This document shows, piece after piece, positions 9,123-59,030 of a stretch of 64,000 bases of DNA. Within the stretch, counting starts at the first letter, position 1, and each line of letters begins with the position of its first letter. The stretch lies in the NCBI RefSeq assembly GCF_020905295.1, contig NZ_JAJJMM010000001.1, positions 1,612,001 to 1,676,000 on the forward strand, given 5' to 3'. The stretch is from Flavobacterium piscisymbiosum (GTDB lineage Bacteria > Bacteroidota > Bacteroidia > Flavobacteriales > Flavobacteriaceae). Position numbers and translations under genes: made by a program. The notes beneath the pieces are model-generated. The model was not told where the DNA came from. It saw only the letters and a list, made by a program, of their open reading frames with translations, and did no database searches.

Positions 9123-9149
9123 TATACTATACCGCTACACTAAGTCTAA

Positions 9150-34622: not shown

Positions 34623-34937
34623 TTAAAACGATTTCTGTTTTTCGAAAGTCGTAGTAAGTGATTTTTTTGCTTTGGCAAGAGCACCGCTAAACGCTTTTTC
34701 CAGTGTATCCGAGTGATCTGTTACGGTTAAGGGTTGTAAATTGGCTACACGAACTTCAATCACACATTTTTTATCGTTTAAGCTGAATTTTTCTCCGTTT
34801 TCATCTCCAAAATGTACTTCAATGCGGGTTATTTTTTCTTCAAAACGAGCTAAACCTTTTTCTAATTCTTCAGAAAAATAAGTTGCTAATCTTTCGTGTC
34901 CTTCGATGTTCTTGTCGGTATTGATTTGAATTTTCAT
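34623..34937 (-). CDS. Ribosome hibernation promoting factor (HPF/RaiA family)
   Basis: 104 residues, the short form. The beta-alpha-beta start (MKIQINTDKNIEGHERLATYF) and FSEELEKGLARFEEKITRIEVHFGD, cited here in part, match the family, as do CVIEVRVANLQPLTVT and LEKAFSGALAKAKKSL. It binds the small subunit to silence or protect ribosomes in stationary phase. It has no C-terminal dimerisation domain. Confidence 0.85.
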   Translation of the reverse strand: MKIQINTDKNIEGHERLATYFSEELEKGLARFEEKITRIEVHFGDENGEKFSLNDKKCVIEVRVANLQPLTVTDHSDTLEKAFSGALAKAKKSLTTTFEKQKSF

Positions 34938-35240
34938 ATCGGTTTATATTTAATGATTATTCTCAAAGCTATCTTTTTTAGAATGAAAACCCAAGTGAGT
35001 TAATAAAACATTATGAAAAAATGTTAGAAAATTTCAAGGCCATTTTTTTATCAGACTTGGCGATTTCCGAAATGTTATTATCGAACACGGATTTAACGGA
35101 TTCACTTCGTGAAAACGCAGATAAAAACAGATTTTTTTATTGTATTTTTTTAGGCTGAGCGAAGTCGGTATGTCAGGCTGAGCGAAGTCGAAGCCCGTTG
35201 CACTTGTCAAACTTGTCTTTCTGCAATTACGTTTAACGAT
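34938..35240. repeat. Gene-free region with GAGCGAAGTCG repeats
   Basis: Includes GGCTGAGCGAAGTCGGTATG and GGCTGAGCGAAGTCGAAGCC in tandem (about 35152-35196) and ACGGATTTAACGGATTCACT (about 35085). These lie at the right edge of the helicase module. Confidence 0.65.
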
Positions 35241-35426
35241 TTAGATTTTTTTAATTTTAAATTTTGTTATGTGTTCGCATACATCACATTTTATAAAGCT
35301 ATTATCATCGACAAACATATTTATTTCAATTTCGTACTCACAAACATGACAATTGTAAAGAACGTCTATGATTTTTATAGGTGAATTAAGTACAGTTGGG
35401 ATTTCTAAGATTGAATATTCTATCAT
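35241..35426 (-). CDS. Small zinc-ribbon-like protein
   Basis: 61 residues from ATG 35426 (an in-frame TTG at 35465 would overlap the helicase gene). Two CxxC knuckles, CHVC and CDVC, are separated by about 20 residues (CEYEIEINMF in between), followed by EHITKFKIKKI. This is a plausible zinc ribbon. It lies 5 bases beyond the helicase stop, so it is probably co-transcribed and may bind nucleic acid or protein. No family is recognised. Confidence 0.6.
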   Translation of the reverse strand: MIEYSILEIPTVLNSPIKIIDVLYNCHVCEYEIEINMFVDDNSFIKCDVCEHITKFKIKKI

Positions 35427-35431
35427 GTTTT

Positions 35432-38400
35432 CTAACCTATTGACATTTTTGCAGACTCTTTCCAAAGATAATTAGGCATTGGCTCATTTAGCTCCCATTT
35501 TATATTCATAGGTTTCGAACCTTCAGTTTCTTTAAAAATACCTTCGCCAATAAAAACATATCCAAGTGTATTTCCATTTTCATCTTTTCCTTTTTCTCTA
35601 ATAAAAAGTAATATTTTTTTATTGCTTTCAATATGTTTTATGTATGAAACTCCTTTGCCTGTTTCTGGTCCATAGGCATTATGTGATTGCCAATGAAATA
35701 ATGTTTCACTTATAGCATAATCCTCATACATAGTTGTTGGCGAAAAGTTCTCTTCGGATTTAATCAAATTAATAAAAAGTATTTCTGTGTTTAAGCTCTT
35801 ATTTTCTGCTGCACCTTCTCGATTAGATGATTTTTTATCGAATGTACTTAAACGGAAAGCTGCTAGTATTTGATCTCTCGTATATCGAGCGTGTAATTTT
35901 AATGGTTGTTCATAAGGTAATTGAATATCAATTTCTTTAAAACCAATTTTATCAATTAATATTTCTAAAACTTCGATAATCTCATTAACAAGAGTTTTAT
36001 TTTTTCTTATTTGAATTATACTTTTTTCTAAAGAATCGAATCCTCCAGCATTTTGCCATACATCATAATGTAGCATTAATAACATGGTTTTTTGGTTTTC
36101 ATCGAAATCATCGATTCTAATATTGAAACCTTGTTTTGCGATCGTTAAAATGAAATTAAAATAACTTGTTGAGTTGGTCGAAAGCCATTTGTTGCTTATT
36201 GCAGAGTAAATTTGTTTTTCATTTATGTTTTCAAAATCATCAGTTATTCCTGCTCGTTGACATAATCTTGACCAGCTATCTTTTTTGTAAATAGTTTCAA
36301 TAGGAATATGATACAATTCAATGAAATTATTTAAAGTTAACGGTAAATTTGTTTGGTGTTGAAAATTTATAATTTTAGAAATTAGTTGATTTACATTTAA
36401 GGATGTAGCTTTTTTAATATTTTCAAGAATTGTTTCTTTTGTTTTCTTCTCCAAAACAATGGAACAGCCTAAAGGAAGATGAGGGAAATCATCTTCAATT
36501 TCTTTTTGAACTGAAGTTGTTGTTTTACCAATTAATGCTCTGAATTTACTTTCAAAATCATATTCAGGTCTTGAGTTTCCAACAAAATCTAAGACAGTCA
36601 AACAATCTTTTCCTTCCGCCAAACGTAAACCGCGACCTAATTGCTGAAGAAAAACGGTTAAACTTTCGGTTGGTCTTAAAAATAAAACGGTATCAATTTC
36701 AGGAATATCCACACCCTCATTGAAAATGTCAACTACAAATAAATAATTGAATTCTTTTTTTTTGAATTCTTCTCGAATTCTGTCTCTTTCGCTTGCATTT
36801 TTAGATGTTAAGTAATTTGCTTTTAATCCTGCCAAATTAAATTTTTCAGTCATAAAAATAGCATGTTCAACAGTTACACAAAAACCGATTGCACGAATGT
36901 CATTTATATCATTAAGATATTTATTAAGATTTGTAATTATCTCCCCAACACGAATATTGTTTTTAGTATATAAGGCTGTTAATTCGCTTGCTACATATTT
37001 ACCTTTTTCCCATTTTACATTTGTCAAATCAATACTATCAGTAATTCCAAAATATTGAAAAGGACTTAATAATTTTTTATTTAATGCTTCAGGAAGTCTT
37101 ATTTCTGCTGCAATACGATTACAAAAATCATCTAGGATATTTTCATTATCCATTCTTTCTGGAGTTGCAGTTAATCCTAATAAGATTTTAGGTTTAAAAT
37201 AATTTAGAAAAGGTCTGTAACTTGAAGCTGATCCGTGATGAGCTTCATCAAGAATAATAAAGTCGTAGTATTCTGGAGAAAGTTTTAAATCTTTTAATCT
37301 ATTGTTTAAAGTTTGTACTGATACAAAAAGATATTCATTAGAATTAGGCTCAATTCCGTCAACCCATAAATCACCAAAGTTGTTATCTTTTAAAACTCCT
37401 TGAAAAGTTGCTTTTGCTTGTTGTAGAATTTCTTTTCTATGTGCTACGAAAAGCAATTTAGAGGATTTATTATTGGTCCTGAAATTCTTGTAGTCAAATG
37501 CAGAAATTACAGTTTTCCCCGTTCCAGTAGCAGCTACCAAAAGATTTCTATATCGATTATGAACCGTTCTTTCAACTTCTAGTTTTTCAAGAATTTCCTT
37601 TTGATAAGGAAAAGGTTTGATATCAAAATAAGCTGTAGTAAAAGTATATTCTTTTGAAAATCTTCCTTGTTTAAGAGCATCAACTAATTTTTCAGAATGA
37701 ATACTTTCATCATATAATTCAAAGTCTGCATTTTGCCAATACGCCTCAAATGTTTTTTTAAATTTATCAATAATATGTCCAACTTCTTTAGTAGTAACTT
37801 TTAAATTCCATTCTAGTCCATCAGTTAAAGCTGAACGGGAAAAATTTGAAGAACCAATATAGCCAGTATGAAATCCCGTATTTCTTTGAAATAAATAAGC
37901 TTTTGCATGTAAACGCTCATTTCCTGTATTATATGAAACCTTTACTTCTGTGTTTTCTAATGAGGCCAAGAATTCAACAGCTTTAGAATCTGTTGCGCCA
38001 ATATATGTAGTTGTAATGACTCTCAGTTTTCCTCCTCTTTCTGTAAATTCTCTTAATTCACGTTCAAGAATTCGAATACCTTTCCATTTAATAAAAGAAA
38101 CTAGTAAATCGATTTTATCTGAAGATAATATCTCCTTTCGTAATTCACTTTCTAAAGTTGTTCCTGCATTTCCTCCAGTAAAAAGCTCGCTATGAATTAG
38201 TCTAGTGTAAGGTGTAATTTCTTTTAAATGTAGATCTAAGTCTTTAAAATGAGCATCGACTTTTGTGAAAACAGCGTTCAATATTTTTCCTTCTGTTTCA
38301 ATTAAATCGCCTTCAAACTCTTCGTTTTTTAATTCATCTCTTAATAGTTGAATTATCTTATTCGAAATTTTTATTTGATTATCTATTAAATCAATTTCCT

Positions 38401-38581
38401 TTTGTTTCGGTAAATTTTCTAATGCATATTTGATGACTTTGCCAATATGCTGTGATAATAATTGAGATGCTTCGGCTTTGTCTATTGAAGTCTTTTTTAT
38501 TTGAAATGTATCTTTATCTAATTCGTTTATTTTGTAGTTTATTAGCTTGGTAACTAATTCTTCATATAATCCTTGGTTCAT
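35432..38581 (-). CDS. PLD nuclease-SF2 helicase-DUF3427 protein, candidate defence factor
   Basis: 1049 residues. PLD domain (about 125-290) with one HxK motif, HAKAYLF (225-231), and GSSNFSR (243-249), so it would act as a dimer or cleave once per subunit. SF2 helicase (about 320-720): Walker A ATGTGKT (351-357), DEAH (445-448), SAT-equivalent LGLTATPER and motif VI QQLGRGLRL. The C-terminus (about 900-1040) carries the DUF3427 pattern (FSPTTMYEDYAISETLFHWQ, GVSYIKHI). Enzymes of this layout are thought to act on foreign DNA. The gene overlaps the NUDIX gene by 4 bases (ATGA), so translation is coupled. Confidence 0.88.
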   Translation of the reverse strand: MNQGLYEELVTKLINYKINELDKDTFQIKKTSIDKAEASQLLSQHIGKVIKYALENLPKQKEIDLIDNQIKISNKIIQLLRDELKNEEFEGDLIETEGKILNAVFTKVDAHFKDLDLHLKEITPYTRLIHSELFTGGNAGTTLESELRKEILSSDKIDLLVSFIKWKGIRILERELREFTERGGKLRVITTTYIGATDSKAVEFLASLENTEVKVSYNTGNERLHAKAYLFQRNTGFHTGYIGSSNFSRSALTDGLEWNLKVTTKEVGHIIDKFKKTFEAYWQNADFELYDESIHSEKLVDALKQGRFSKEYTFTTAYFDIKPFPYQKEILEKLEVERTVHNRYRNLLVAATGTGKTVISAFDYKNFRTNNKSSKLLFVAHRKEILQQAKATFQGVLKDNNFGDLWVDGIEPNSNEYLFVSVQTLNNRLKDLKLSPEYYDFIILDEAHHGSASSYRPFLNYFKPKILLGLTATPERMDNENILDDFCNRIAAEIRLPEALNKKLLSPFQYFGITDSIDLTNVKWEKGKYVASELTALYTKNNIRVGEIITNLNKYLNDINDIRAIGFCVTVEHAIFMTEKFNLAGLKANYLTSKNASERDRIREEFKKKEFNYLFVVDIFNEGVDIPEIDTVLFLRPTESLTVFLQQLGRGLRLAEGKDCLTVLDFVGNSRPEYDFESKFRALIGKTTTSVQKEIEDDFPHLPLGCSIVLEKKTKETILENIKKATSLNVNQLISKIINFQHQTNLPLTLNNFIELYHIPIETIYKKDSWSRLCQRAGITDDFENINEKQIYSAISNKWLSTNSTSYFNFILTIAKQGFNIRIDDFDENQKTMLLMLHYDVWQNAGGFDSLEKSIIQIRKNKTLVNEIIEVLEILIDKIGFKEIDIQLPYEQPLKLHARYTRDQILAAFRLSTFDKKSSNREGAAENKSLNTEILFINLIKSEENFSPTTMYEDYAISETLFHWQSHNAYGPETGKGVSYIKHIESNKKILLFIREKGKDENGNTLGYVFIGEGIFKETEGSKPMNIKWELNEPMPNYLWKESAKMSIG

Positions 38582-38973
38582 ATTTCAAGTTTTAAAAATT
38601 CTTCAACGATTGGTAAATCTGCTTCTGCCCAATCAAGGTTTAATAATTGTGATCTTTCTAGTAATCTGTAATCTTTATGTTCTGCTAGTTTGATTTCACC
38701 TGAAATATATTGAACTAGGAAAGGAATTAAATTGATTTTGAAAGTACCGTAATCATGAATATTATTTGATAATTTTTGTAACACCTCAATATTGATATTT
38801 ATTTCTTCTTTGATTTCTCTTTTGATACAATCTATTTCACTTTCATTAATTTCTAATTTACCGCCAGGAAATTCCCACTTTAAAGGTAATTTCATTTTTT
38901 CATTTCTTTGCGCAACGAGAATTTTTTCATTCTTTAAAATTATTGCACAAGTAACATTTATGATTTTAGACAT
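38578..38973 (-). CDS. NUDIX hydrolase coupled to the helicase
   Basis: 131 residues. The Nudix box is GGKLEINESEIDCIKREIKEE (Gx5Ex7REUxEE form: G-G-K-L-E start, REIKEE end), and the N-terminus ATCAIILKNEKILVAQRNE-like with WEFPGG matches MutT-type 8-oxo-dGTP or dNTP pyrophosphatases. Its stop overlaps the helicase start (38578-38581). I recall such small NUDIX genes next to DUF3427 helicases elsewhere; here it may remove a nucleotide signal, sanitise damaged or modified nucleotides, or control the partner. Confidence 0.88.
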   Translation of the reverse strand: MSKIINVTCAIILKNEKILVAQRNEKMKLPLKWEFPGGKLEINESEIDCIKREIKEEININIEVLQKLSNNIHDYGTFKINLIPFLVQYISGEIKLAEHKDYRLLERSQLLNLDWAEADLPIVEEFLKLEI

Positions 38974-39060
38974 TTTTAATAATGCGGTAAATGATTTATA
39001 AATACTAATTTGATAACGAAGTTTAATATTAGTGAAATATAATCACATTAACTATTCTTA

Positions 39061-39540
39061 TTAATTTTTAGGAATAAGATTTTCAGGATAAGAAATATTA
39101 AAATAATTTTCAAAAGCTTTACAAAGTAATTCTTTATCTATTGCAAATAATTCATTTCTAACATCCCAATCTTTAATATTCTCTTCGTCTTGCTCACAAA
39201 TCTCTTCACCCACAAGTTTTCTAGTTAATATATCGCTTAGTAAAACATTATCGCAATGAGAATATTTTGGATAATATTTCTCAATGAATAACCAATAATC
39301 AAATTTATCGTCATCTTCTTTTTCTTCTTTGCTATCTTTCTCTTCGTATTCTTTAATTACTTCGAATTCTAACCAACCCATTGCTTCACCAAGTCCTTTG
39401 TAAAATGCATTTCTTTCTACCCAAGTTTCGAAAGTATACTTTTTTAAGTTGATTATTTTTTCAAAATCATTTAAAGGTTCATTATTATGAAATTTTCTTA
39501 CTTGATCTTTTCCGAAAATTATTTCTGCTAAATATTTCAT
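39061..39540 (-). CDS. Acidic hypothetical protein of the helicase module
   Basis: 159 residues, not recognised. It is very rich in Glu, Asp, Lys and Tyr, with a strongly charged stretch (EEKDSKEEKEDDDKFDYW) in the middle. The start MKYLAEIIFGKDQVRKFH and LSDILTRKLVGEEICEQDEE suggest an all-alpha protein. It lies 87 bases upstream of the NUDIX gene on the same strand. A TACATTTG box (reverse strand 39592-39599) 52 bases before its ATG could drive the whole module. Confidence 0.65.
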   Translation of the reverse strand: MKYLAEIIFGKDQVRKFHNNEPLNDFEKIINLKKYTFETWVERNAFYKGLGEAMGWLEFEVIKEYEEKDSKEEKEDDDKFDYWLFIEKYYPKYSHCDNVLLSDILTRKLVGEEICEQDEENIKDWDVRNELFAIDKELLCKAFENYFNISYPENLIPKN

Positions 39541-39839: not shown

Positions 39840-39960
39840 AATTATAAGTTGAAAGAGCTCTTCGACTTCGCTCAGAGTGACAAATCTTTGGCGAGCTTCT
39901 AGTGTGATTGCTTTCGCTGCGGCGAACAGGTCTTTCCTCAGCATGACAAGATTGAGATGA
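39840..39960. repeat. CTTCGACTTCGCTCAG repeat region
   Basis: CTTCGACTTCGCTCAGAGTG is the reverse complement of the GAGCGAAGTCGAAG family; further TTCGCTGCGGCGAACAG and CTCAGCATGACAAGA. No gene. Confidence 0.6.
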
Positions 39961-39973
39961 GTTTGTGGCAAAA

Positions 39974-42442
39974 TCATTTTTCTTTATCCTTCTTCCCCCA
40001 TTTAATTTTCATTTTTCCTTCATCGTCCAGAGCAATTAAATGCAGGACAATTCCGCGGTCGCGAACGGCATCGCGTTCGGCTTTGGTGGCGAGTTTGATG
40101 TCGTTTTTGGAGTTTCGGAGTGGGATGGTGAGGGCGAGATTGGTGCCTCGGCCAAAGGAATAAATACCTTCGGCATCGAGGTTTAAGACACTGGAACTAA
40201 TGGTAAAATTATTGACATCGATTTGTTCTCCGCGCAATTTAAGTTTGCCGGATAAATCGCTAAACGTGATATTCTCGACATCGCGGAACGGAAAAGCAAA
40301 CTTGCCAATTTTTACGATAGGCTCGAAGTTGACCAAAGCACCCTGATTGACATTGAACGCCAAATTGCCGTGCATAGAATTGGTGATCAGCTCGCCATTG
40401 CTATTAATAAATCCGGTAACATTGGCCTGACTGCTGAGTTTTCCTTTGATGTTATTCGGGCTAAAAGATTTGACTCCGAAGTTATTAAACGATCGTAAAA
40501 AACTCGCAATATCGACCCGGTTTACCTGCGCGTTGGAGCTAAAAGCAAAGTTTTTTCCGCTTGGTTGTACTTCGCTGTTAAACGTGATGCTTCCGCCGGA
40601 AGTTTGCAGCGAACCGTTTTTAATCACCAATTTCGAATCGATCATTTGTACGGTTGCGGTTGTGTTGGTTGCGGTTAGTTTGTTGTAACTAATTTTATCG
40701 GCTTTGATGTCGATTACTACAGCACATTTGTCGATTGCGGTTCGTATTTGGTTCGAAATTGTGGTTCTTTTATGGGTTTTCGCTATGGCTTTTGTTTTTT
40801 GCGAAGTGGCTAAAACACCCAAAAATTGTTTAAGATCGATGTATGGTGAATAGATTTTCCAGTTTACGATCATTTTTTCGGGCGCGTCGTAATAAAGGTT
40901 CAGAAAATTGTCGATTTTACCTTCGATTAAAATGGTGTTTTTAAGATGTTTGTATGTGATTTGTTTGATAAGCAATGCTTTCTCAGTAAAATCAAGATGA
41001 ATGTTGGTTTTTACGGCATGAACATTCTTTGGGATATAATGAAATGAGGCGTCATCGACATCTATTTTACCAATAAAACGTGGTTTTGTAATGTACAAAT
41101 CGACGATATCAAACTGAAATTTGAGATTGGCTTTTGCGTGTCCGGCCGAAAACTGAATCCATTTGTCATTGCTGATTTGGTTGAGTCTTTCGACATCAAA
41201 ATCTGAATTTACGTTTCCGGTCGCGACTGGTTTTTCGAGATTATTAATCGCCAATTGCGGAATCGTAAGCGGAATATTCTCGTATTCGCCTGCAAATTGG
41301 GTCAGGATAATAGCCGAATTGGCATCGTTGTAACCGTCTTTTGGTTTGAAATTGTTGGTGAAAATTCCCTTGAAATGGCATTTTTTAATTAATCCGTCGG
41401 GAATACTCAGTTCGTTGTCTTTTATGATGGCCTGAACGACAATTCTGGGATCGCCTTCGGCATTAAAATCGCCTTTTATGTCGCAATTGACATCGATGGG
41501 TTTACTCAGATTAAAGCGATTTAATTTCGAACTAATATTTGCCGATAATACATTCGAAGCATTTTGCCATAAAATAGAAGTTCCAATATTGATTCCGAAA
41601 AGGGCATTTCCTTTGGCCAGATTAAAAAAAGCAATAATATCAAAAGAGTCTCTTCCTATTTTTAGATCTCGGGTTACGACATCAATTCGTTCTTTTTGAG
41701 CAGAATAGGCAACATTAAAAGTTCCTTTGAGTTCTTTTTCTTTGGCGAAACTGCCGTGTACGGTATTAAAAGCTAAACTCTTTATTTGTGTGTCCAGAAA
41801 AACATCAGTTTGCCAATTATCTCCGTCATAATCTACTTTTGTTTTTAAACTGGCAACATCAAAATCGAACAATTTATGTCCAAGGCGATTGTCCAGAATA
41901 AAATGAACATCGTTGAGGTCGATTTGGTCAATGGTAGTTTCGCGATCTGATTTATTTTCGGGCGATTTTTTCTTTTTGGGTTTAAAGATATTGGCGTTCG
42001 AATAACCGTCTTCGGCTTTATAAACATAAATATCGGCATCGTTGATGAGGATTTTATGCATGTTGATTTCGTTTTGCAGTAAACTCCAAACGTTTAATCG
42101 CGCTTCGATTTCGGTTGCTTTTAGTAAAGTATGTTGGTGAGTTGCCCATTGATTGTCTTTGAGTTCGACATCTTTTAAGGCCAAAGTAAAATTAGGGAAA
42201 CCGGTTAGAAACTTATAATGAAAATCGCCAACATGAAATTTTCCGTTGATGTTTTCATTGATCTTCGTATTGATCTTGGCGATGATTTCGGTTTTATTTC
42301 GATTAAAATAAATAGACAATCCACCACAAGCAATTAATAACAACACAATAAGTCCTAATACGAAATAGCCAAAGCGTTTGGCATATTTTTTAAATCGAAC
42401 GGATTGAAAGAAGTTTTTTATGTGGAGTAAAGTTGCTGACAT
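39974..42442 (-). CDS. AsmA-like envelope protein
   Basis: 822 residues. One N-terminal membrane helix (FGYFVLGLIVLLLIACGGLSI) anchors a long periplasmic part rich in beta strands, as in the AsmA/TamB superfamily, which forms lipid-conducting bridges. Conserved-looking blocks include FPNFTLALKDVELKD near the N-terminus and INVNQGALVNFEPIVKIGKF-like text (NVNQGALVNFEPIVKIGKF) followed by ENITFSDLSGKLKL near the C-terminus, typical of AsmA C-terminal domains. The usual role is outer-membrane lipid homeostasis. It is transcribed alone. Confidence 0.82.
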   Translation of the reverse strand: MSATLLHIKNFFQSVRFKKYAKRFGYFVLGLIVLLLIACGGLSIYFNRNKTEIIAKINTKINENINGKFHVGDFHYKFLTGFPNFTLALKDVELKDNQWATHQHTLLKATEIEARLNVWSLLQNEINMHKILINDADIYVYKAEDGYSNANIFKPKKKKSPENKSDRETTIDQIDLNDVHFILDNRLGHKLFDFDVASLKTKVDYDGDNWQTDVFLDTQIKSLAFNTVHGSFAKEKELKGTFNVAYSAQKERIDVVTRDLKIGRDSFDIIAFFNLAKGNALFGINIGTSILWQNASNVLSANISSKLNRFNLSKPIDVNCDIKGDFNAEGDPRIVVQAIIKDNELSIPDGLIKKCHFKGIFTNNFKPKDGYNDANSAIILTQFAGEYENIPLTIPQLAINNLEKPVATGNVNSDFDVERLNQISNDKWIQFSAGHAKANLKFQFDIVDLYITKPRFIGKIDVDDASFHYIPKNVHAVKTNIHLDFTEKALLIKQITYKHLKNTILIEGKIDNFLNLYYDAPEKMIVNWKIYSPYIDLKQFLGVLATSQKTKAIAKTHKRTTISNQIRTAIDKCAVVIDIKADKISYNKLTATNTTATVQMIDSKLVIKNGSLQTSGGSITFNSEVQPSGKNFAFSSNAQVNRVDIASFLRSFNNFGVKSFSPNNIKGKLSSQANVTGFINSNGELITNSMHGNLAFNVNQGALVNFEPIVKIGKFAFPFRDVENITFSDLSGKLKLRGEQIDVNNFTISSSVLNLDAEGIYSFGRGTNLALTIPLRNSKNDIKLATKAERDAVRDRGIVLHLIALDDEGKMKIKWGKKDKEK

Positions 42443-52166: not shown

Positions 52167-52240
52167 GGTTTGGTAGTTCAGTTGGTTAGAATACATGCCT
52201 GTCACGCATGGGGTCGCGGGTTCGAGTCCCGTCCAGACCG
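52167..52240 (+). tRNA. tRNA-Asp (GUC)
   Basis: 74 bases. Acceptor GGTTTGG/CCAGACC, D-loop AGTTCAGTTGGTTAGAA, anticodon loop CTGTCAC (GTC), T-arm CGGGTTCGAGTCCCG, discriminator G. CCA is not encoded. Identical to the copy at 52976. Confidence 0.97.
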
Positions 52241-52250
52241 CAATATTGGG

Positions 52251-52281
52251 AAAAGCCTTTCTTAACGGAAAGGCTTTTTTG
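52251..52281 (+). terminator. Terminator of tRNA-Asp copy 1
   Basis: AAAAGCCTTTC-TTAAC-GGAAAGGCTTTTTT hairpin. Confidence 0.9.
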
Positions 52282-52413
52282 CCCAAATACGGTATCTAAG
52301 ATTAGTTGTGTTGTTTTGCTACGACTTTGTAACTCGTAGCTGGTTTAGTAGTTAGACCAATGAAAAGCTTTCCACTTTTGTGGATGGCTTTTTTGATTTA
52401 GGACACTTTTGAT

Positions 52414-52716
52414 TTAACCGCAAGGAACACAATCCCGATAGCTATCGGGATACGCAAAGTCCGCAAGTTTTTTTTAAGCTTTGCGGATTTTTTGTTTTTA
52501 TTTTATATTAGTTTGAGAATATTTAACCGCAAGGAACGCTAAGATTTACGCGAAGTCCGCAAAGTTTTTTTAAGCTTTGCGGATTTTTTGTTTTTATTTT
52601 ATATTAGCTTGAGAATATTTAACCGCAAGGAACGCTAAGATTTACGCAAAGTCCGCAAAGTTTTTTTAAGCTTTGCGGATTTTTTGTTTTTACTTTATAT
52701 TAGGTTGAGAAAACAC
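52414..52716. repeat. Three direct copies of a ~97-base repeat, first one carrying the 18-bp palindrome
   Basis: Copies start near 52415, 52524 and 52621; each runs TTAACCGCAAGGAAC ... CGCAAAGTCCGCAA ... AAGCTTTGCGGATTTTTTG ... TTTTATATTAG. Copies 2 and 3 differ at a few positions. In copy 1 TCCCGATAGCTATCGGGA (52433-52450) replaces the middle GCTAAGATT. The inner arms form a TTTGCGGA hairpin. Confidence 0.88.
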
Positions 52717-52926
52717 AAAGTTCACAAAGTTGATTCAAGGCAAAGCTTTGTGCACTTTGCGTTTTTATAGACCAATCATGCATACAAACTTTGCACACTT
52801 TGCGGTTAAATTCGGCTTTTTAGCTTTTTAGATCTGGAATTTGGTCCCGAAGCGTCTAGATTTAACTTTGGAATTTCTTTAAAATCAGTTCATTAAAAAT
52901 TTCTCAAATTTTATTCGCAAAAAGCC

Positions 52927-52956
52927 TTGTATAATCCAAGTTCTGTTGTATTTTTG
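52927..52956 (+). promoter_or_regulatory. Promoter of tRNA-Asp copy 2
   Basis: TTG (52927-52929)-N19-TATTTTTG (52949-52956), perfect consensus. Confidence 0.85.
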
Positions 52957-52975
52957 CACTCACAATAACGCAGTT

Positions 52976-53049
52976 GGTTTGGTAGTTCAGTTGGTTAGAA
53001 TACATGCCTGTCACGCATGGGGTCGCGGGTTCGAGTCCCGTCCAGACCG
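52976..53049 (+). tRNA. tRNA-Asp (GUC), second copy
   Basis: 74 bases identical to the copy at 52167-52240. The sequence around it (AACGCAG before, CAATATTGG after and the terminator) is also shared, showing a segmental duplication. Confidence 0.97.
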
Positions 53050-53059
53050 CAATATTGGA

Positions 53060-58659: not shown

Positions 58660-59030
58660 GCATTTTTTGTCATCCTGAGCGAAGTCGAAGGACACGCACG
58701 GAACTCTGCAACGAAAGCCCAATCTTTGTCGGGTTTAATCTCGCAAAGGCGCGAAGCCGCAAAGATTTTATTTTAAAGCTACAGATTAGATTCAAAGGAT
58801 TTTTTTCACGCAGATTCTACAGATTTTAGCAGATTTAATTTTGATTATAATAATATCTGCGTTTATCCGCTTAGATCTTTTTAAAATCTGCGTGAAACAA
58901 AAACTTTGCGCCTCTGCTCCCGATAGCTATGGGGATTGCGAGATTAAAAAAAACTCAGCGAATCTCTGCGAAAAATCTCTGTGCAACTCTGCGAAAAAAC
59001 TTATCTTGCAACCGTTAAAAAAATAAAATA
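58660..59030. repeat. Gene-free repeat region after the MFS gene
   Basis: TCATCCTGAGCGAAGTCGAA (58672 onward), TCGCAAAGGCGCGAAGCCGC, CACGCAGATTCTACAGATTT and AATCTGCGTGAAAC as inverted arms (58808-58895), and a mutated palindrome TCCCGATAGCTATGGGGA (58918-58935). The last 40 bases form the next gene's leader. Confidence 0.75.

Follow-up and report, generated by a model that had tools for sequence, protein, structure and literature searches.

A SauUSI-type restriction enzyme and a linked NudG-like Nudix hydrolase in Flavobacterium piscisymbiosum: a candidate two-gene Type IV restriction module

The restriction enzyme SauUSI is reported to cleave DNA that contains 5-methylcytosine or 5-hydroxymethylcytosine, and not DNA that contains N4-methylcytosine (PMC3874153; statements cited by PMC number refer to the available excerpts of the papers). 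Its C-terminal part has an SRA fold, modelled as flipping 5-methylcytosine into a pocket made of Tyr831, Phe841, Ile842 and Trp868, with Met829 filling a gap in the pocket and Asp858 positioned nearby (PMC7913695). A second kind of enzyme relevant here is the Nudix hydrolase NudG, for which a kcat/Km of 1,300 × 10^3 M-1 s-1 is given for 5-methyl-dCTP, compared with 47 × 10^3 M-1 s-1 for CTP (PMC5158307). The two kinds of gene have been seen side by side: small proteins beside SauUSI homologues of Streptococcus are identified as MutT homologues (figure legend, PMC7641849), and the Nudix family PDC-S07 and Type IV restriction genes (RM type IV) lay together in 23 of 23 cases in Streptococcus suis (PMC12813430). 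Here we describe such a pair in a 64,000-nucleotide stretch of the Flavobacterium piscisymbiosum genome (contig NZ_JAJJMM010000001.1, positions 1,612,001 to 1,676,000), hereafter called the window. No mechanism for a pair made of a Nudix hydrolase and a SauUSI-type enzyme was found in the literature searched, with subscription papers lying mostly outside the search. The neighbourhood is thus already in print for streptococci, and what is added here is its breadth, its tie to the SRA part of the enzyme and a testable role.

Identity of the two proteins

A preliminary description of the locus had proposed a four-gene defence module. An open reading frame (ORF) check of the window placed all four ORFs on the minus strand, at the coordinates that the description gave. 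The two genes at the centre of this study, and the parts predicted in their products, are as follows:

35432..38581, minus strand: SauUSI-type Type IV restriction enzyme, 1049 amino acids (aa) (PADLOC PDLC03659, PDB 7clg, Pfam)
37736..38119, minus strand: PLD-family nuclease domain, residues 155-282, with the HxK motif H225/K227 (Pfam PF13091)
37154..37621, minus strand: first half of the SF2 ATPase core, residues 321-476, with Walker A K356 (PF04851, E 4e-40)
36620..36931, minus strand: second half of the SF2 ATPase core, residues 551-654 (Pfam PF00271)
35456..36043, minus strand: DUF3427 / SRA-like reader region, residues 847-1042 (PF11907, E 2.7e-27)
38578..38973, minus strand: NudG-like Nudix hydrolase, PADLOC PDC-S07, 131 aa (PDLC04899, 164 bits)
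38794..38862, minus strand: Nudix box, residues 38-60, catalytic residues intact

The large protein matches PDLC03659 (mREase_IV), the PADLOC model of Type IV methyl-directed restriction enzymes, with 777 bits (E 6e-234), and scores far lower (275 bits) with PDLC03658. Pfam detects PLDc_2, ResIII, Helicase_C and DUF3427, the last of these making up the SRA-like region of the C-terminus. Its best relative of solved structure is PDB 7clg (E 1.2e-79), a protein of 953 aa deposited as 'putative helicase'; the code 7clg appears once in the paper on the SauUSI structure, in which the last SauUSI residue is 953 (PMC7913695). In the PLD domain, H225 and K227 of the HxK motif align with H119 and K121 of SauUSI, and both residues are identical in 48 of 48 aligned relatives. 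The Walker A lysine, K356, is invariant in an alignment of 15 rows. Judged by its sequence, the large protein is a somewhat divergent member of the known restriction-enzyme family SauUSI, and it probably destroys DNA with modified cytosines. The view that a nuclease joined to a helicase marks a defence locus was borne out by the PADLOC match to a restriction enzyme. The nuclease-helicase architecture (PLD-SF2-DUF3427) stands as well, but the description overstated the case, as this architecture is that of the already established SauUSI family.

PDC-S07 matches the Nudix protein over almost all of its length, and Pfam assigns the protein to NUDIX. In NCBIfam the top score, 86 bits, comes from the NudG model PRK10546; because this lies below the family cut-off of 156, we claim only that the protein may work like NudG. 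Structural matches include PDB 5x1x, 3gwy and 2rrk. Residues Glu44, Arg52, Glu53, Glu56 and Glu57 of the Nudix box do not vary among the helicase-linked Nudix proteins (82 of 82; alignment columns 43, 51, 52, 55 and 56, which count from Ser2). The gene shares the sequence ATGA with the enzyme gene, and the 4-bp overlap noted previously agrees with the coordinates. Two guesses had been made about the function of the Nudix protein, and 'modified nucleotides' fits better than 'nucleotide signalling'.

Genomic linkage and methyltransferase co-occurrence

To count as enzyme-bearing, a genome had to hold a match at E 1e-60. By this measure, 41 of 249 Flavobacterium genomes carry the enzyme, 27 of them with one subtype and 14 with another. 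In 36 of the 41 (the window counted), the enzyme gene is preceded on its own strand, at 252 bp or less, by a Nudix gene, and 20 of these 36 pairs overlap by exactly 4 bp, with start codons chosen mechanically. By a rough estimate, adjacency this frequent could hardly arise by chance. Beyond the genus, a Nudix gene was matched by eye beside the enzyme in at least 19 of the 39 enzyme-bearing genomes of a sample of the phylum. Across phyla, 26 of 80 named loci have a Nudix gene in the same orientation at a distance of up to 1.5 kb, which precedes the enzyme in 21 and follows it in 5; the count is a lower bound, as several flanks are short.

The association tracks the architecture of the helicase. 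Among Bacilli, where 32 loci were examined (30 of the 49 matches listed and two from another search), an adjacent Nudix gene was found in 18 of 24 helicases with an SRA match and in none of 8 without one (p 2.9e-4). One of the six SRA-bearing loci that lack the Nudix gene (L224) has flanks too short to hold it; one of the eight SRA-less helicases is a fragment, and the five that were scanned all lack Pfam DUF3427. The 18 Nudix neighbours are placed in three ways: 9 upstream, 2 downstream on the same strand and 7 downstream and convergent. When the 82 linked Nudix proteins were examined in a quick tree with few columns, a single clade was rejected (10 label changes; approximately unbiased test, p 0.006), so it appears that the linkage was formed, or formed anew, on more than one occasion. 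In two loci, L137 (genome G312) and L043, a helicase of the window's subtype has a Nudix partner that falls among the partners of the other subtype, which looks like an exchange of the Nudix gene. Altogether, the Nudix protein looks like a genuine partner of the enzyme: the conserved linkage in the genus and its contrast between the two kinds of Bacilli helicases agree with the previous suggestion that the two go together.

Genomes were also searched for DNA methyltransferases. The window's genome has no match to the cytosine-C5 methyltransferase family PF00145, while an identical search was positive in 10 of 14 control genomes. Within Flavobacterium, a C5 methyltransferase above the family cut-off is found in 6/41 enzyme-bearing and 136/208 enzyme-free genomes (Fisher p 1.6e-9), figures which assume that the three genomes below the cut-off are those with the three weakest matches. 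If every match is counted across the 249 genomes, the proportions are 8/41 and 137/208 (p 5e-8), and after merging helicases at 90% identity any C5 methyltransferase occurs in 5 of 28 clusters. N6-adenine methyltransferases, used as a control, differ little between the two groups (39/41 and 193/208, p 0.75), but they are near saturation in the genus. The exclusion seen at genus level supports modified-cytosine targeting without proving it.

A proposed role and its alternatives

We propose an explanation that, in our judgement, has an even chance of being correct: the two genes would form a Type IV restriction module in which the enzyme cuts DNA with 5-modified cytosine and the Nudix protein hydrolyses 5-modified dCTP, protecting the host chromosome. 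The SRA-like C-terminal part would read 5-methyl- or 5-hydroxymethyl-cytosine in incoming DNA, the enzyme would draw two sites together by ATP-driven translocation, and a dimeric PLD nuclease would cut, as in SauUSI, from which both cutting and specificity are carried over by analogy. Type IV enzymes come without a protective methyltransferase, so the host's safety would rest on its own DNA being free of 5-modified cytosine at the target. Modified phage DNA that has been destroyed, or the phage's own pool, may supply 5-modified dCTP, and its incorporation by the host polymerase would turn the chromosome into a target. In support of such a route, 5-methyl-dCTP is described as readily incorporated into DNA and as a compound for which the breakdown of methylated DNA may be the main source; the phosphorylation of 5-methyl- and 5-hydroxymethyl-dCMP by phage kinases has also been reported (PMC10742078). 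The Nudix protein would close the incorporation route by hydrolysing 5-modified dCTP to the monophosphate, as NudG does with 5-methyl-dCTP; both substrate and purpose are suggested by this likeness. This activity would in addition starve a phage of modified precursors.

A broader and more tentative idea, to which we give somewhat less credence, is that Type IV restriction has a nucleotide-pool antidote: the Nudix protein would replace the protective role played by the methyltransferase in ordinary restriction-modification and would have been recruited more than once to SRA-bearing helicases. Type IV enzymes are described as self-sufficient, and a conserved pool enzyme would make either self-protection or precursor attack a part of the system. 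If true, the defence candidate PDC-S07 would acquire a role, and the idea would bear on how hosts tolerate the SauUSI barrier.

Several observations weigh against the proposed module. Concerning the pocket, four of the six SauUSI residues are kept (F936, I937, D954 and W964), but M829 is replaced by E922 and Y831 by A924, and the glutamate at the E922 position is fixed in 25 of 25 aligned relatives of the window's subtype. Since Met and Tyr are replaced and Glu is fixed, the enzyme may differ from SauUSI in the modified base that it recognises or in the context of that base. Concerning linkage, an intact adjacent Nudix gene is missing in 5 of the 41 Flavobacterium genomes (four have none, and G438 has Nudix fragments beside a shortened helicase), and none of 23 proteobacterial or campylobacterial loci has a Nudix gene within 1.5 kb. 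Concerning methyltransferases, the sample of the wider phylum shows no exclusion (16/39 and 127/257, p 0.39). Within the genus sample, the window's three nearest enzyme-bearing relatives include two, G405 and G474, that have a C5 methyltransferase as well; for these two reasons the exclusion in the genus counts as support and not as proof. In the clostridial locus L110, an ORF directly downstream of position 9132, about 4 bp past the enzyme gene, appears to be C5-methyltransferase-like, judged by eye from a motif. The arrangement in L110 hints that some members of the family may be methylation-protected and not methylation-dependent.

Other points against the proposal concern the Nudix protein itself. 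The NudG-type Asp, found where MutT has Asn, is shared by 17 of 18 unlinked relatives, and many of these have housekeeping genes as neighbours, as judged by eye; because unlinked relatives carry it too, the Nudix sequence does not single out 5-modified dCTP. The table row for NudG also lists 2-OH-dATP as a substrate, with mutation-rate evidence (PMC5158307), and by analogy the Nudix protein may have an antimutator role. Finally, in 18 of the 120 relatives listed, a Nudix of this family forms a fusion with a second candidate defence helicase, PDC-S41.

This fusion, together with the linkage to a probable modified-cytosine restriction enzyme, is also what speaks for an alternative in which the Nudix protein is an attack arm, depleting modified or ordinary cytosine nucleotides that the phage needs while the enzyme cuts its DNA. 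The Nudix chemistry predicted by this alternative is identical to that of host protection. Nevertheless, restriction of modified lambda by SauUSI without a partner is reported for E. coli (PMC3874153), so an attack arm is not required, and 54 of the 80 named loci have no adjacent Nudix gene, some of them with short flanks. We consider the attack arm unlikely, although it is the most probable of the alternatives.

Much less probable is that the Nudix gene is an ordinary housekeeping MutT/NudG gene, present as a bystander or hitch-hiker and perhaps antimutator. Its PADLOC family is indeed widespread, as 293 of the 296 genomes sampled from the phylum contain a PDLC04899 match (E 1e-5), housekeeping genes included; several of 17 high-scoring unlinked copies that were inspected by eye adjoin housekeeping genes, and the activity of NudG on 2-OH-dATP would suit such a function. 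Against this stand the negligible probability of chance adjacency in the genus, the fact that the association tracks the SRA part of the helicase and the existence of three gene arrangements with apparently more than one origin.

We are equally doubtful of the four-gene module first proposed, in which two further neighbours would be working parts. These are listed below:

39061..39540, minus strand: 159-aa protein predicted to consist of two modules, part of a variable restriction hotspot and not specific to the enzyme-Nudix pair (30/249 genomes)
35241..35426, minus strand: mini-protein with two CxxC motifs, lineage-restricted, 61 aa from the ATG at 35426 (ORF, profile searches)
35241..35465, minus strand: the same mini-protein from an alternative TTG start at 35465, 74 aa (ORF)

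A link between the 159-aa protein and the enzyme is suggested by the nine Flavobacterium genomes that have both, as the two genes lie within about 0.5 kb in 9/9 (five full-length, four with the C-terminal half only). However, the 159-aa gene occurs in 30 of the 249 genomes and 21 of them lack the enzyme, several with other restriction-type genes at that site. Regarding the mini-protein, its position 5 bases past the enzyme stop is confirmed for the 61-aa form, and its profile matches are sub-threshold zinc ribbons (Elf1, E 0.003; FmdB, E 0.016). Its gene was found behind the helicase only in the window's own genome and in three closely related ones; in the other loci searched it was not found, save for a weak match in the enzyme-free locus L161. 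The conserved unit consists of two genes and not of four. Least probable of all is nucleotide-signal control, in which the Nudix protein would make or remove a small-molecule signal (for instance of the ADP-ribose type, or an alarmone) that gates the nuclease: Nudix domains do occur in nucleotide-linked conflict systems (PMC7159879), but the best matches of this one are (d)NTP pyrophosphohydrolases of the MutT/NudG kind.

The surrounding locus and comparison with known systems

The pair and the 159-aa gene lie between two further genes:

34623..34937, minus strand: 104-aa protein, one hotspot flank, called HPF here (flanks differing cargo in relatives)
39974..42442, minus strand: 822-aa protein, the other hotspot flank, called AsmA-like here (flanks differing cargo in relatives)

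What lies between the 104-aa and 822-aa genes varies: it is the enzyme in the window, L125, L131 and L132, and restriction-type cargo in seven enzyme-free loci (L160-L163, L172, L175 and L178). In L121, L126, L127 and L149, the enzyme adjoins the 104-aa gene but is not enclosed in this way. Because these genes enclose differing restriction cargo across loci, the interval between them is a Flavobacterium restriction hotspot with exchanged cargo. The surroundings of all 21 enzyme-free loci with the 159-aa gene were retrieved, with partial gene lists for L168-L170. Nine neighbours of the gene were scanned and comprised two HNH nucleases, an NgoFVII-like nuclease, a Type II methyltransferase that coincides with the position of a PF00145 match, two AAA ATPases, a PDC-S41 helicase, a Vsr and one protein without a match.

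The 159-aa protein itself has no match in Pfam, PADLOC or NCBIfam. It has 191 relatives at E 1e-3, and those named by organism among the best 120 of the 191 belong to Flavobacterium or Flavobacteriaceae; a weak match is an 85-aa ORF in the Bacteroidales locus L109. Two parts, 1-67 and 82-150, are predicted with a low-confidence linker between them, and the two modules also occur singly as mini-proteins, some of them beside restriction-type genes.

Two signs of acquired DNA had been put forward for the locus. The AT-richness exists, as GC content is 0.27-0.31 across 35-40 kb, but it is not unique, since values elsewhere in the window range from 0.285 to 0.415. The flanking repeats exist too; yet the sequence of the clearest pair adjacent to the module, GACTTCGCTCAGNNTGACA, occurs 82 times in the genome, which makes it a dispersed repeat and not a module border. 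Copies in the window lie at 35152-35190, 39860-39882 and 58675-58686, and a number of copies form inverted pairs about 50 bp apart. Elsewhere in the window (52167-53050), two tRNA-Asp genes with identical anticodon are separated by 2.7 copies of a 96-nt tandem repeat.

When compared with known systems, the enzyme shares with SauUSI the HxK motif and the order of its parts, PLD nuclease, SF2 motor and DUF3427/SRA reader. It differs in being about 100 residues longer at the N-terminus and in lacking the acidic residue of HxK(x)4E, which is Q232 here. A very close relative of SauUSI (L204, 1616 bits to 7clg) also adjoins a Nudix gene. The Nudix protein resembles E. coli NudG (Orf135; PDB 2rrk) in its Nudix box, in the Asp at the position of the MutT Asn and in its best NCBIfam match; the differences are a score short of the NudG cut-off (86 bits against 156) and the surroundings, as E. 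coli nudG has no restriction gene within its surrounding 8 kb. The fusion of PDC-S07 with PDC-S41 likewise joins this Nudix family to a candidate defence helicase, of Schlafen group 3, but the joint is covalent and the fusion protein has no PLD or DUF3427 match in Pfam. An example of the fusion is L190:4015-6387 (genome G130), which lies beside a PDC-S68 match. As for PDC-S07, which is listed in PADLOC as a single-gene candidate, the Nudix protein of the window matches it over nearly its full length but is one half of a pair.

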